DNA from: Solirubrobacterales bacterium
GTDB taxonomy: Bacteria > Actinomycetota > Thermoleophilia > Solirubrobacterales > Solirubrobacteraceae
Assembly: GCA_003244205.1 (NCBI GenBank)
Contig: QHBW01000098.1
Location: 1 to 64,000, forward strand
Length of the DNA: 64,000 nucleotides
Direction of reading: 5' to 3'
Shown: in pieces, positions 17,152-21,964 of the stretch
Layout of the letters: each line of letters begins with the position of its first letter
How positions within the stretch are numbered: position 1 is the stretch's first letter
The notes under the pieces: generated by a model
Database searches by the model: none
Seen by the model: the letters and a program-made list of their open reading frames with translations, nothing else
What the model was told of the DNA's origin: nothing
Position numbers and translations under genes: made by a program

Positions 17152-18033
17152 TTACAGCCCGCCCAGAAGCCGCGCAGCGACCCCGCGCAGTGTTTCCTTG
17201 CCGTAGGCGTGGGTCCCGTCATCGACGGTCAAGATCGCCAGCGCGACGCGCTTGCTGCCCTGCTCGAGCAGCGCCACCTGATGATCGACGCGTCCGGTTC
17301 CAGAGCCCCAGCCGCCCTTGAAGTACAGCTGCCAGCCGCGCGGGGCCGCTCGCGCGATCCCCCAGCGCTGCGGACCTATGACCGACGCCAGCAGCGCCAT
17401 CCCATACGCTCGATGGCGGGGCACGATGTAGCGGTCGATGTTAAGGAAGAACTGGGACTGGTCGCGCGCATCGATGAGGCTGTTGCCCCAGATCGGCGAT
17501 ACCGCCACGAAGCGGGTCATCCCCACGCGACTCGCCAGCGCCTGCAGACGGCCGTCGCCGACGATCGCATCGACCTGCGATGCCGCCGCGTTGTCCGACC
17601 AGCGGATCATTGGCGCCAGCAGCTGACGATCGCCGTCTGTCAGGTCGCGGTCGCGGACGCCGCCCATGTTCAGATATGCGACGAGCAGCATCGCCTTCAG
17701 CACGCTCGCCGAGGGCACGCTGTTGGTCGCGTGATAGCCGTAAAGGTGTCCGCGCAAGCGCAGCGCGATCATCACCTGGCCGTTGCGCCCCCGCGCGTAG
17801 GCGATTGCCTGGTCCATCCTGCGCTGCCAGAACGCCGGCGGCTGGAGATAGGCGGACTCCGGCGGGGGCTTGCCCGCGGAGGGGACAAGCGGCATTGCGT
17901 GAGTACCCGACGGGCGCGCCCAGCTGACTCCCGCCGGCACGACGATTGCGAGCGCGACCAGCGCCGCGGCGGCTGTCCTGGACCGGCAGGCTGGCGTCGC
18001 CCGCAGGCCTTCTGTGCGAACCCGTCCTCGCAT
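17152..18033 (-). CDS. secreted class A beta-lactamase-like serine hydrolase
   Basis: 293 residues. A signal peptide (hydrophobic core about 20-38) is followed by a penicillin-recognising fold: SVLK as the SxxK motif (about 110-113), SDN (about 147-149) and KGGWGSG in place of the KTG box. The Omega-loop Glu of true class A beta-lactamases is not evident, so it may be a D,D-peptidase-like or esterase member. It acts outside the membrane on the cell wall or a related amide. It diverges from the mauE-like operon across 93 bases. Confidence 0.82.
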   Translation of the reverse strand: MRGRVRTEGLRATPACRSRTAAAALVALAIVVPAGVSWARPSGTHAMPLVPSAGKPPPESAYLQPPAFWQRRMDQAIAYARGRNGQVMIALRLRGHLYGYHATNSVPSASVLKAMLLVAYLNMGGVRDRDLTDGDRQLLAPMIRWSDNAAASQVDAIVGDGRLQALASRVGMTRFVAVSPIWGNSLIDARDQSQFFLNIDRYIVPRHRAYGMALLASVIGPQRWGIARAAPRGWQLYFKGGWGSGTGRVDHQVALLEQGSKRVALAILTVDDGTHAYGKETLRGVAARLLGGL

Positions 18034-18126: not shown

Positions 18127-18654
18127 ATGGCACTAATGCCAGCGTTTGGGGTCGCCTCCGCTCTGCTGATCTTCGCCGGGGTGGCGAAGTGGCGCTCGCC
18201 TGAGTCCGCCCGTTACGCGCTGGCCCTGGTGGGGAGGCGTGTGCCACGTTCCGCCGTCCGCGCACTGGGAGCTGCGGAGACAGGTCTCGGCGCAGTCGCG
18301 CTCGCGCGACCGGGCACGATTACGGCGTCGGCCGTGGCGCTCGCGTACGGAGCGTTCCTTGTCTTCATCGTCACCCTGCTCCGCAGCGCGGATCGGCCGG
18401 CGAGCTGCGGCTGCTTCGGCGATGTCGAATCGGGCGCTGGGGCTGTGCACGCGGCACTGAACGGGGTCGGAATGAGCGTGGCCGTCCTTGCAGCGATCGC
18501 ACCACCACCGGGTCTCGGCTGGATCCTCACGCGCGTTCCGCTGATCGCTGCGCCGCTTGCGATCGGGATCGCGACCGCCGCGTTCGCCGCCTACCTCGCC
18601 TTCACGGCCTTCCCTCTGGCATGGCGTTCGTACAGCTCGGACGCGCCGACATGA
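18127..18654 (+). CDS. MauE/DoxX-like redox membrane protein
   Basis: 175 residues with about four membrane helices and the motif CGCFG (94-98), the Cys-x-Cys signature of MauE-type proteins. In methylamine utilisation, MauE together with MauD supports disulfide formation and export of the Cys-rich light chain of methylamine dehydrogenase. By analogy it would pass oxidising or reducing equivalents through the membrane for the Cys-rich protein encoded next. The next gene starts in its stop codon (ATGA, 18651-18654). It is the first gene of an eight-gene operon; no heavy-chain gene (mauB) accompanies it. Confidence 0.8.
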   Translation: MALMPAFGVASALLIFAGVAKWRSPESARYALALVGRRVPRSAVRALGAAETGLGAVALARPGTITASAVALAYGAFLVFIVTLLRSADRPASCGCFGDVESGAGAVHAALNGVGMSVAVLAAIAPPPGLGWILTRVPLIAAPLAIGIATAAFAAYLAFTAFPLAWRSYSSDAPT

Positions 18655-19265
18655 GCCAGCGGCTCGCCGAGGCAGCCAGCTCGCTGCTCGAGCGTCGTAC
18701 CTCGCGGCGCAGCGTCTTGAGCCGCGCCGCGCTCACGGGCTCCGCCTTCGTCGTCGCGCCGCTTCGCTACCTGCTGCGCCCGGTGAGCGCGTGGGCCGTG
18801 GTGGCGCCGGGAAACTGTGGTGGGGGGCTCTGCGACGATGGATACACGGCCTTCTGCTGTGAGATCAACCACGGTAAGAACGTCTGCCCACCGCACACCT
18901 ACGTGGGGGGCTGGTGGATGTGCACGGCCTACCAGGGAAGGGGCCTGTGCGCGCCGCAAGGGGTTCGCTACTACGTCGATTGCAACCAGACTCCGGGGCA
19001 GGGCTTCCCGGGTGGCTGCCGTTGTGCGAATGACAATTGCAGCGAGCGGCGCGTCGACTGCAATGTCTTCCGTTACGGGCAGTGCAACACGCAGGTCGGC
19101 GGCACGACTGCCGTGGGCTGCCGGGTCGTCGTCTGCCAGAACCCGGCGTCGATCGACGGCTTCAACTGCAACGGCAGCGTCGCGGTGGATGACAACACGT
19201 GCACGCACGAGTGGAATTGCCTCACGCCGCTCGTGCAGCAGCTTCCAGGCGACGGCGGTGCCTAG
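18651..19265 (+). CDS. Tat-exported 18-cysteine protein, MauA-light-chain-like
   Basis: 204 residues. The N-terminus carries RRTSRRSVLSRAALTG, a Tat-type signal, then a short hydrophobic run. From residue 56 the mature part holds 18 cysteines, including FCCEIN, CRCAND and FRYGQCNTQ, plus Trp in GGWWMC and HEWNC. The Cys density, Tat export and company of MauE- and MauD-like genes resemble the methylamine dehydrogenase light chain, where two Trp form the TTQ cofactor. Sequence identity to MauA is not obvious by eye, so 'light-chain-like' rests on architecture and context. It probably folds outside the membrane with up to nine disulfides. Confidence 0.7.
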   Translation: MSQRLAEAASSLLERRTSRRSVLSRAALTGSAFVVAPLRYLLRPVSAWAVVAPGNCGGGLCDDGYTAFCCEINHGKNVCPPHTYVGGWWMCTAYQGRGLCAPQGVRYYVDCNQTPGQGFPGGCRCANDNCSERRVDCNVFRYGQCNTQVGGTTAVGCRVVVCQNPASIDGFNCNGSVAVDDNTCTHEWNCLTPLVQQLPGDGGA

Positions 19266-19267
19266 CG

Positions 19268-19984
19268 GTGACCGCGCTGATCGCCTGTGAGACCGTTCTG
19301 CTCGCGCTACTGACGCTGCTCGTCGCCGGTTTGCTGCGCAGCCACGCGGAGATCCTGCGCAGGCTGGGGTCACCCGACGGTGAGCAACCGTTGAGGGCGA
19401 CGCTACCCGAGCCGGGCGAGCGCGCCGGCGCGGCCCCCGCCCGCGATCTCGCCGGCACCACGCCCGACCGGGACGCCATCCAGATCGGCTTGGGCGGGAC
19501 CTCGCCACCGACGCTCCTCGCCTTCCTGACCACGGGGTGCACGATCTGCCACGCCTTCTGGGAGGACCTGCGCCGCGGGCGGCCCGCGGAGGTCCCGGCC
19601 GCAATCCGCATCGTTGCAGTCACCAAGGACTCAAGCCACGAGAGTCCAGCATCGCTACGCCAGTTGGCCCCAGATGGGCTGCCAGTCGTGATGTCGACGG
19701 ACGCCTGGAATGACTATCGCGTCCCAGCGGCACCGTACTTCGTGTACGTCGCCGGCGGAGAGGTGCAGGGCGAGGGCTCGGCGAGCTCCTGGCGGCAGAT
19801 CGCCTCCCTGCTCGGCGACGCGATCGACGATCTCGCCTACGCGCACGAGCGCCGCGGCGGCGAGCGCAGGGCCGATCAGATCGATCGAGCGCTGGCGACG
19901 GCGGGGATCGGACCGGGCCACCCAAGCCTCTACCCAGCCGGGCTTCCCGGCGAGAACCATCCTAACGAGGAGGATCGATCGTGA
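19268..19984 (+). CDS. MauD-like membrane-anchored thioredoxin-fold protein
   Basis: 238 residues from a GTG at 19268. A single N-terminal membrane helix (about 2-22) and a linker lead to a thioredoxin-like domain with FLTTGCTICHAFWEDL, a CxxC active site (CTIC). A cis-Pro-like segment VPAAPYFVYV follows, as in MauD/TlpA proteins. It should face outward and shuffle or reduce disulfides in the Cys-rich partner. Its C-terminal 40 residues are charged and probably flexible. The gene starts two bases after the Cys-rich gene and overlaps the next by GTGA. AGGAGG at 19968-19973, inside its 3' end, serves that next gene. Confidence 0.82.
   Translation: MTALIACETVLLALLTLLVAGLLRSHAEILRRLGSPDGEQPLRATLPEPGERAGAAPARDLAGTTPDRDAIQIGLGGTSPPTLLAFLTTGCTICHAFWEDLRRGRPAEVPAAIRIVAVTKDSSHESPASLRQLAPDGLPVVMSTDAWNDYRVPAAPYFVYVAGGEVQGEGSASSWRQIASLLGDAIDDLAYAHERRGGERRADQIDRALATAGIGPGHPSLYPAGLPGENHPNEEDRS
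19968..19973 (+). promoter_or_regulatory. consensus Shine-Dalgarno that decides a start
   Basis: AGGAGG lies seven bases before GTG 19981. It is among the best ribosome sites in the window, and it drives a frame that meets UGA after only 23 codons. This favours the view that the frame beyond the UGA belongs to the same gene. Confidence 0.75.
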
Positions 19985-20649
19985 CGCAGATCGTGCTGCT
20001 CGGCTGCGCGGCGGGCTTGATCGCCGCCGTCCGTTCGGCGTGGTCTCCCTGAGGCCAGTCGATGCTTGCGAGCATCACCCCGCTCGGTGAGCGGGCACGG
20101 CGATCCAACTGGCTGTTCACCGTGCTGGTGTACGTCGTGGGATCGCTTGGCGGCGGCACGACGATCGCGGCGCTCGCGGGGGCAGCGGGCTCACTTGCGC
20201 TAGGGGGCGTCAGCTGGCAGGCGCGCATCGTCGTCGTGGCGGCGGTGCTCGCGATCGGACTCGCGTGGGAGGTGCTGCGCGCCGGCGTCCCTGGTCCGCG
20301 GAGGCAGGTCAACGAGCGCTGGCTGAAGGAGTACCGCGGCTGGGTCTACGGGGTCGGCTTTGGTGCGCAGCTCGGCGCGGGAGTCGTGACGGTGGTCATG
20401 ACTTCGTCCGTCTATGTCGTCTTGGTCGCGGCCTTTGCGTCGGGTCAATGGCAGAGCGGCGCGCTGATCGGGGCTGTCGCAGGAGCGTTGCGTGGCGCAA
20501 CCGTGTTGGCAGCTGCCCGCGTCCGTACTCCTTCACAGCTGGTTGCCCTTCACGCCCGTATGGACGCATGGCGAGCCCCGATCCGCTCGGGCTCACTGGT
20601 GACTCAGCTCGTGCTGTCCGTGCTAGCGATCGCGCTCGTGGCGAGCTGA
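19981..20649 (+). CDS. MauF/CcdA-like membrane redox protein with in-frame UGA
   Basis: Translation from GTG 19981 gives a first helix ending VRSAWSP, then UGA (20050-20052), then GQSMLASITPLGER and about five more helices to 20649, all in one frame. If UGA is decoded the product is 222 residues. The segment SP-x-GxSMLxxITPL matches the DsbD/CcdA/MauF-type motif in which x is the redox-active Cys, so UGA replaces that residue. The rest of the protein has only one Cys (position 9). Options are selenocysteine insertion, a TGC-to-TGA nonsense mutation, or reinitiation at ATG 20062, which would lose the first helix. It shares GTGA with the mauD-like gene; position and fold suggest it feeds electrons to that protein. 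Confidence 0.7.
20061..20095 (+). promoter_or_regulatory. SECIS-like double hairpin after the UGA
   Basis: Two perfect stem-loops follow the UGA. GATGCT-TGCG-AGCATC (20061-20076) has its loop 14 bases after the UGA. CCCGCTC-GGT-GAGCGGG (20079-20095) has a 7-bp stem with a loop starting GG, 33 bases after the UGA. The second fits the usual bacterial SECIS spacing of about 16-37 bases and the need for a G at the start of the loop. GC-rich DNA forms hairpins easily, so this supports but does not prove recoding. Confidence 0.4.
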
Positions 20650-20651
20650 CG

Positions 20652-21125
20652 ATGCTGCTACGGGCGCACGGAATCGAGATCGAGCTCCCCGCGGGCTGGG
20701 ACGGCCGCATCTACAAGCGACCCAGCGGAGACCCCACGCTCCACGCGGCGAGCTTCGCCCTCCCACGCGACGACGGCGACTTCGGCAGTGGCGCGACGGC
20801 CCGGATGCCCCACGGCGGAACCTTCTTTGCACTGCGGGAATACCGGCCAGGTGACGGCCTCGTCCCCGGTGCCGGTCTGTTCGCCAGCCGGCAGCTGCCT
20901 CTCCCCCTAGACACGCGACGATTTCACCCGCGCGCACTGCAGGTCGGCCGCCGGGGGCAAGCTGGCTTCCAGCACTTCTTGACCTGGGGCGAGCGGCCCT
21001 TCTGCCTCTACGCCGTCGTCAAGCCCGACGTGCGCGCGGCTGTCGTCGCGTCGGGCGCCGGTCACCAGGTCGAGCGGCTCAACCGCATCCTCTCGACCGT
21101 CGTCCTGCAGACGAAGTCTCAATGA
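20652..21125 (+). CDS. hypothetical protein of the mau-like operon
   Basis: 157 residues, beginning MLLRAHGIEIELPAGWDGRI, with a mixed alpha/beta composition and no signal peptide or membrane helix. The opening resembles small actinobacterial proteins that share an 'ELPxGW' strand, but no function is known to me. The ATG is two bases after the upstream stop, and the stop overlaps the next gene by ATGA. It is therefore translated with the redox genes and likely serves the same pathway in the cytoplasm. Confidence 0.7.
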   Translation: MLLRAHGIEIELPAGWDGRIYKRPSGDPTLHAASFALPRDDGDFGSGATARMPHGGTFFALREYRPGDGLVPGAGLFASRQLPLPLDTRRFHPRALQVGRRGQAGFQHFLTWGERPFCLYAVVKPDVRAAVVASGAGHQVERLNRILSTVVLQTKSQ

Positions 21126-21964
21126 GTGAGCTCGCGAGGATCCCCCGTCGGCTAGGACGAGTGACGAACACCGCGCTCGCGATCGGACTGCTGCTTGGCG
21201 TCTTCGTCCATATCTCAGGCGCCTACGGCGCGACGGGTGCGCGCCTCGCGGGGCGCTTCGCGATGACCGGCAAGATCACCTATGCCCGCAACGTCTTCGG
21301 CGAGCACGCCGGCCAGGGTGTCCGTCGCAACTGGACGTTCTATCCGCAGTGCCCGGGGAGCGACTGCGCACGGGTGATCCTGTGGCGCCAGCGCTCTGGC
21401 CCGCGAACTCTCGACCGGGTTGTCCTCGACCGGGTCGCGCCAGGTCTCTATCGGGGCCGCGGGCGCTTCTGGGTCCGTCTGCGCTGCAGCGGGCGGATAG
21501 ATGAGCATGGGGGCGCGGCGCTCGAGGCAATCACGGTAACGGTAACGCGGGCGAGGACCGTGGGGATCACCCCATTCGCCACCGCGGTGAAGGCCACCTA
21601 CGACAACCCAGCTCGCTTCAACTACACGCGTTGCCCGGGCGGAATCGGTCGTGACGCCGCGCGCTACTCCGGCCCGCTTGCAAGCGCTCTGCCCCAGCCA
21701 CCGGTGACCGCCTTCACGCAAGCAATCAGCGCGCTACCGACGACCGTGTCGTTTACCGACGAATCCCGGCCGCAGCAAGGCGGGGCGCCACTTGTCTCCT
21801 GGCGGTGGGATTTCGGCGATCCCGGGTCGGGAGCCGCAAATGACAGCTCGAGCGCCAGGGATCCGGTGCATGCGTTCTCCGCGCATGGGACCTACACCGT
21901 GACGCTGACCGCAAAGGACGCTTTCGGGCTCGAGACGACCGTCGCGCACGCGATCACGGTCTGA
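21122..21964 (+). CDS. secreted PKD-domain protein
   Basis: 280 residues. An N-terminal membrane segment or signal (about 17-37) is followed by a beta-rich middle region with four scattered cysteines. A C-terminal PKD domain (about 195-280) has LVSWRWDFGD, then HAFSAHGTYTVTLTAKD, the WDFGDG and YTVTLT hallmarks of this Ig-like fold. PKD domains usually mediate surface or protein-protein contacts. It may present or anchor the operon's Cys-rich product at the surface. Its start overlaps the previous stop (ATGA). Confidence 0.82.
   Translation: MSELARIPRRLGRVTNTALAIGLLLGVFVHISGAYGATGARLAGRFAMTGKITYARNVFGEHAGQGVRRNWTFYPQCPGSDCARVILWRQRSGPRTLDRVVLDRVAPGLYRGRGRFWVRLRCSGRIDEHGGAALEAITVTVTRARTVGITPFATAVKATYDNPARFNYTRCPGGIGRDAARYSGPLASALPQPPVTAFTQAISALPTTVSFTDESRPQQGGAPLVSWRWDFGDPGSGAANDSSSARDPVHAFSAHGTYTVTLTAKDAFGLETTVAHAITV

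Follow-up and report, generated by a model that had tools for sequence, protein, structure and literature searches.

The 64,000-nucleotide stretch analysed here (the window; contig QHBW01000098.1 of the Solirubrobacterales assembly GCA_003244205.1) contains a gene cluster in which one frame is interrupted by a single UGA, predicted with high confidence to encode selenocysteine (Sec) in a small membrane protein. In agreement with the initial annotation of this DNA, a consensus Shine-Dalgarno motif is located seven bases before the GTG at position 19981, 23 codons precede a TGA at codon 24, and the frame continues through 198 sense codons to a TGA stop at 20647-20649. Besides codon 24 there is no further internal stop, and the protein is strongly conserved downstream of the UGA. 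The gene sits inside a tight operon: its GTG shares bases with the stop of the preceding MauD-like gene, and only 2 nucleotides (nt) separate its own stop from the gene that follows (Table 1). The amino acids W-S-P directly before the UGA are kept, with synonymous codons that vary freely, so that selection acts on the frame as protein on both sides of the UGA. As had also been noted, codon 9 is the only cysteine codon of the window gene, and across the family no cysteine is conserved in any column other than that of the UGA.

Table 1. Features of the Sec gene and of the surrounding cluster, with positions in the window.
Feature	Position	Strand	Details	Basis
Shine-Dalgarno motif AGGAGG	19968-19973	+	7 bases before GTG 19981	sequence
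Predicted selenoprotein gene, DsbD/CcdA-like (MauF-like) membrane protein	19981-20649	+	222 residues with Sec24	
UGA, predicted Sec codon (Sec24)	20050-20052	+	invariant in Sec genes; Cys in other homologues	
Hairpin 1, GATGCT-TGCG-AGCATC	20061-20076	+	nearly invariant; paired in 99.4% of cells	frozen synonymous codons
SECIS-like hairpin, CCCGCTC-GGT-GAGCGGG	20079-20095	+	apical loop GGU at 20086-20088, 33 nt after UGA	model fit, covariation
MauE-like membrane protein	18127-18654	+	CGCFG motif; first gene of conserved cluster	Pfam PF07291 MauE, E 9.5e-13, 49 bits (cut-off 27)
Tat-exported Cys-rich protein	18651-19265	+	about 16 conserved Cys in family	twin-arginine leader
MauD-like membrane-anchored thioredoxin-fold protein	19268-19984	+	CxxC (GCTIC); conserved neighbour	NCBIfam TIGR02661 MauD, sub-threshold
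Conserved protein after Sec gene	20652-21125	+	homologue beside Sec gene in nearly all loci	no Pfam match
PKD-domain protein	21122-21964	+	adjoins in most loci of the order, often inverted; peripheral	Pfam PKD_4, E 3.6e-13

Homologues were searched in 232 genomes of the order, and in 20 of them a member of the main family with exactly one in-frame TGA was found, in every case at SP-U-G[E/Q]SM. Three relatives (L041, L043 and L044) and a more distant SPCGF/L group have TGC or TGT at this codon. A scan of GTDB genome contigs, in which 80 loci were kept and the motif was present at 67 sites, gave TGA at 59 sites and TGC or TGT at eight. These sites derive from metagenome-assembled genomes (MAGs) of Solirubrobacterales, Acidimicrobiia, Nitriliruptoria and Frankiales, and from Phycicoccus sp. 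Soil802 and Acidiferrimicrobium sp. IK. In a sample of 396 genomes of the phylum, 53 contain a homologue with one TGA; the site was read in 46, and all 46 have TGA at the identical codon, including divergent subfamilies with quite different flanks. Together, about 100 homologues from several classes of Actinomycetota carry UGA at the same codon, and the agreement among the three sets excludes chance. The alignment of homologues proposed in the initial annotation thus returned Cys at codon 24 wherever UGA is absent. Where a genome has more than one copy of the Sec gene (G056, G202), the TGA is retained as well. At these loci (L061 in G202, L069 in G056) inverted and tandem partial duplicates lie on one contig, and all copies that cover the site have TGA; the duplicates may be real or assembly artefacts.

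Downstream of the UGA the RNA can form two hairpins, the second of which resembles a selenocysteine insertion sequence (SECIS). The published bacterial SECIS model (PMC13188914) describes a loop of 3-9 nt with a G in the first two loop positions, at 16-37 nt from the UGA and with an energy of -7.5 kcal/mol or lower. With 7 base pairs, the loop GGU, a distance of 33 nt and -11.5 kcal/mol, the hairpin in the window agrees with this model, as do those of 60 of the 63 unique Sec genes versus 3 of the 14 Cys genes. The model also fits 18 of 20 divergent Sec genes, and further counts gave 28/30 Sec genes and 1/3 Cys genes; the background among random windows from the same loci is 506 of 3200 (16%).

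The choice of synonymous codons is frozen at the stems (Ser+7 is AGC in 63/63 genes, Ile+8 ATC in 62/62, Ser+3 TCG in 61/63 and Pro+10 CCG in 60/63) and free in the loops (Leu+5 and Gly+12, 1.5-1.7 bits) and just upstream of the UGA (Ser-2, 1.5 bits; Pro-1, 1.8 bits). Four pairs of the SECIS-like stem vary on both sides, in 21 cells versus 7.7 expected; none of 500 shuffles reached this value, although relatedness of the sequences inflates the comparison. One homologue (L131) has CCT..AGG in place of CCG..CGG, with both changes synonymous. In the SPVGEA subgroup the hairpin is displaced by 4 nt and has the loop GGUC, and divergent subfamilies form a hairpin of different sequence at the same position, for example CCCCCGTG-GTC-CACGGGGG. 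Folding of single sequences against codon-shuffled versions gave a weak signal (mean z of -1.05 for Sec genes and -0.23 for Cys genes) because the region is GC-rich, so that the analysis relied on codon-level and model-based tests. RNAalifold recovered hairpin 1 and two further pairs from the alignment and missed the second hairpin, probably because of the shifted register and the GGUC loop of the SPVGEA subgroup. Hairpin 1, the first of the two after the UGA, is more invariant in Sec genes than the published SECIS model demands.

The genome of the window (G000; 2.66 Mb, 93% complete, a draft in 100 contigs) encodes all four components of the Sec machinery for which a search had been proposed, each exceeding its curated cut-off: selA and selB adjoin on contig 9, selD is present, and the tRNA-Sec (selC) scores 65.8 bits and is called tRNA-SeC with the anticodon TCA by ARAGORN. 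A formate-dehydrogenase-like gene (FdhA; contig 71, 4166-4915, - strand) has an in-frame TGA at the canonical Sec site, ...QARI-U-HSSTVPGLGTSFGRGG. Since the match is split, its score does not reach the Fdh-alpha cut-off; the position of its TGA indicates that UGA very probably encodes Sec elsewhere in the same cell. FdhA resembles the protein studied here in its active-site UGA and in the use of the same decoding machinery, but it belongs to a well-known family of soluble Mo/W enzymes.

Across the phylum sample SelA was found in all 46 genomes with a verified Sec codon, in 50 of the 53 with a one-TGA homologue and in 232/396 overall, versus 0/7 of the genomes with a stop-free homologue (in four of these the Cys codon itself was read). 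The corresponding Fisher test (50/53 vs 0/7) gives p = 3e-7, a value that overstates the evidence since related genomes are not independent. Within the order, 15 of the 20 Sec genomes have SelA, and SelB was detected in three more, one of them partial. One Cys genome, G117, has both SelA and SelB.

The complete Sec machinery, the conserved UGA with Cys as its alternative, the SECIS-like hairpin with its frozen stems and compensatory changes, and the co-occurrence with SelA together support Sec decoding, as had been suggested initially from the position of the UGA. From these sequence data, UGA 20050-20052 almost certainly encodes Sec, and it very likely does so in a thiol-redox membrane protein. 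SelB and tRNA-Sec would decode the UGA as directed by the hairpin at 20079-20095. The SECIS-like hairpin, the distribution across the family and the composition of the whole operon extend the initial annotation.

That annotation had further described the protein as MauF/CcdA-like, which holds at the level of the superfamily. The Pfam family PF13386 (DsbD_2) matches 19 of 40 relatives, with a best E value of 9.9e-8; the window protein alone gave no DsbD_2 match in the Pfam search, and a search of its sequence against the PDB returned nothing significant. Its AlphaFold2 model (pLDDT, the predicted local distance difference test, 95.5; pTM, the predicted template modelling score, 0.90) is all-helical, with a helix break just before Pro23-Sec24. 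Like CcdA and the transmembrane domain of DsbD (PF13386 DsbD_2, PF02683 DsbD_TM), the protein is small and polytopic, has its redox residue after S-P at a helix break on the N-terminal side, and adjoins a thioredoxin-fold partner. It differs in that position 24 is the sole conserved Cys/Sec of the family and is mostly Sec, whereas CcdA and DsbD have two conserved redox residues in the membrane domain. The product is best described as a small MauF-like member of the DsbD/CcdA superfamily with one conserved chalcogen, Sec, at a helix break near the N-terminus.

The surrounding genes were likewise expected to encode MauE- and MauD-like thiol proteins. The MauE assignment stands, with a match well above the cut-off. 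The MauD-like protein is a conserved thioredoxin-fold neighbour with a CxxC motif, but its match to TIGR02661 stays below threshold (E 0.0015 in the window, 3.5e-4 in relatives). Throughout the order the genes for MauE, the Cys-rich protein, the MauD-like thioredoxin, the Sec protein and the protein at 20652-21125 stay together, and MauE homologues, which were checked in loci of the order, adjoin the Cys-rich gene in 16 loci. MauE apart, most loci of other classes also keep the cluster, there often with the Cys-rich gene downstream.

The Cys-rich protein, which carries a signal for the twin-arginine translocation (Tat) pathway, is 57-71% identical in most orthologous loci of the order. In other classes its Cys-rich domain is fused to LGFP repeats or SLH domains (L094, L109, L119, L124), which points to a cell-surface protein. 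We found no Pfam match in 46 members and no PDB sequence match, and the domain appears to represent an undescribed family of surface proteins with no Pfam family of its own. Among PDB folds, 2bbk_L was returned only as a non-significant match, which leaves any resemblance to the light chain of methylamine dehydrogenase as no more than a lead. In the order and type of neighbours (MauE of PF07291, a MauD-like thioredoxin and a Cys-rich exported protein) the cluster resembles MauF with MauD and MauE in methylamine dehydrogenase clusters. It differs in that MauD is matched only below threshold, the Cys-rich protein is not recognised as the MauA light chain and neither a heavy chain nor MauG was identified in the cluster of the window; for MauF itself, Pfam offers no model for comparison.

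Based on this gene order, we tentatively propose a thiol/selenol relay in the membrane, in which the Sec protein, MauE and the MauD-like thioredoxin serve the disulfides of the Cys-rich protein, its likely client. The Sec residue, together with MauE (CGC motif), would pass electrons across the membrane to the exported MauD-like thioredoxin (CxxC) and thereby set its redox state; the thioredoxin would correct wrong disulfides, so that the many disulfides of the Tat-exported surface protein are formed properly. Alternatively, the relay may run in the opposite, oxidising direction. The family could, with similar reservation, be regarded as a widespread group of single-selenol membrane redox carriers in Actinomycetota, mostly with Sec and old enough for the nested Cys forms to be secondary, which powers a dedicated pathway (MauE, MauD-like thioredoxin and Sec protein) for disulfide maturation of Tat-exported Cys-rich surface proteins.

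Several observations weigh against parts of this interpretation. Foldseek found no significant DsbD/CcdA match for the Sec protein in the PDB, and both the direction of electron flow and the client are read from gene order alone. On the side of decoding, 3 of the 63 Sec genes miss the strict SECIS model, and two genomes of the order, each 75% complete, carry the UGA gene with SelA and SelB undetected.

Less likely than not, the product is a selenoprotein outside any disulfide relay; it might, for instance, be a transporter, or a membrane protein in which the selenol serves as a ligand for metals or thiols. This would account for the single conserved chalcogen, unlike the two Cys of CcdA and DsbD, and the wider fold superfamily includes transporters. 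Against it stands the strict link in gene order to MauE, a CxxC thioredoxin and a Cys-rich exported protein.

It is very improbable that the functional product starts downstream of the UGA, for example at ATG 20062, with the UGA ending a leader peptide or an upstream open reading frame. Such a start would open a frame of 195 codons, and the hairpins could regulate initiation. The 23 upstream codons are, however, conserved as protein, with the invariant WSP encoded by the free synonymous codons described above, and Cys homologues have a continuous frame. ATG 20062 itself lies within hairpin 1 and has no Shine-Dalgarno motif of its own, and the co-occurrence with SelA would be left unexplained. 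We therefore rejected this reading. A pseudogene, which the initial annotation had regarded as the main competitor in the form of a nonsense mutation from TGC, has a negligible probability: TGC and TGA are one base apart and the genome is a draft, but a mutation or sequencing error in a single genome cannot explain the same TGA in about 100 homologues from independent genomes of several classes, nor its retention in duplicated copies and in a frame with no other stop and strong downstream conservation. Equally remote is a reading of the UGA as another amino acid such as Trp, or by SelB-independent readthrough; some bacteria do reassign UGA, but the residue that replaces it in homologues is Cys and never Trp, these genes also use UGA as their ordinary stop, and tRNA-Sec, SelB and a SECIS-like hairpin are present.

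For the Sec-decoded family, a rapidly built tree of 118 proteins (101 Sec, 17 Cys) requires three changes between the two residues and places two Cys clades nested among Sec proteins (the root was not inferred). The tree suggests an early presence of Sec in the main family, with at least two replacements by Cys. Such switches, together with the shift of the SECIS register along with the protein sequence, make the family well suited to studies of how the use of Sec evolves.

Neither the 2026 catalogue of 119 prokaryotic selenoprotein families and subfamilies (PMC13188914, Table 1) nor the deep-Sep list contains this family, and none of the selenoprotein models of NCBIfam 20.0 matches any of 40 members. 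Text searches returned no earlier report, with subscription papers and preprints outside their scope, so that an earlier notice is possible. TsoB, a catalogued rhodanese/DsbD fusion-like selenoprotein (NF045694; PMC13188914, Table 1), shares a DsbD-like part but differs in its two Sec residues (UxxxxU) and its rhodanese domain, and NF045694 matches no member of the present family. These proteins would hence form a new and unusual selenoprotein family, found widely across Actinomycetota: polytopic redox carriers of the membrane in which the one conserved redox position is occupied by Sec. Standard gene callers take UGA as the end of a gene, so that public annotation probably truncates or omits many of the members. 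Phycicoccus sp. Soil802 and Acidiferrimicrobium sp. IK are named, non-MAG records, which makes direct testing possible.

At the borders of the cluster, the protein at 20652-21125 may be a further part of the system. On the other side, a divergent gene on the - strand (17152-18033), whose translation resembles a serine beta-lactamase-type hydrolase, is not conserved in related loci according to tblastn. Beyond the main family, DsbD_2/MauF-like subfamilies of Actinomycetota of the TPVVHGG, TPSVRG, FTWPVGHA and GRAML types (L200-L219, e.g. L211, L215, L216 and L218) likewise carry TGA at this codon. Each of them has a SECIS-like hairpin of its own, and they probably represent further Sec families.
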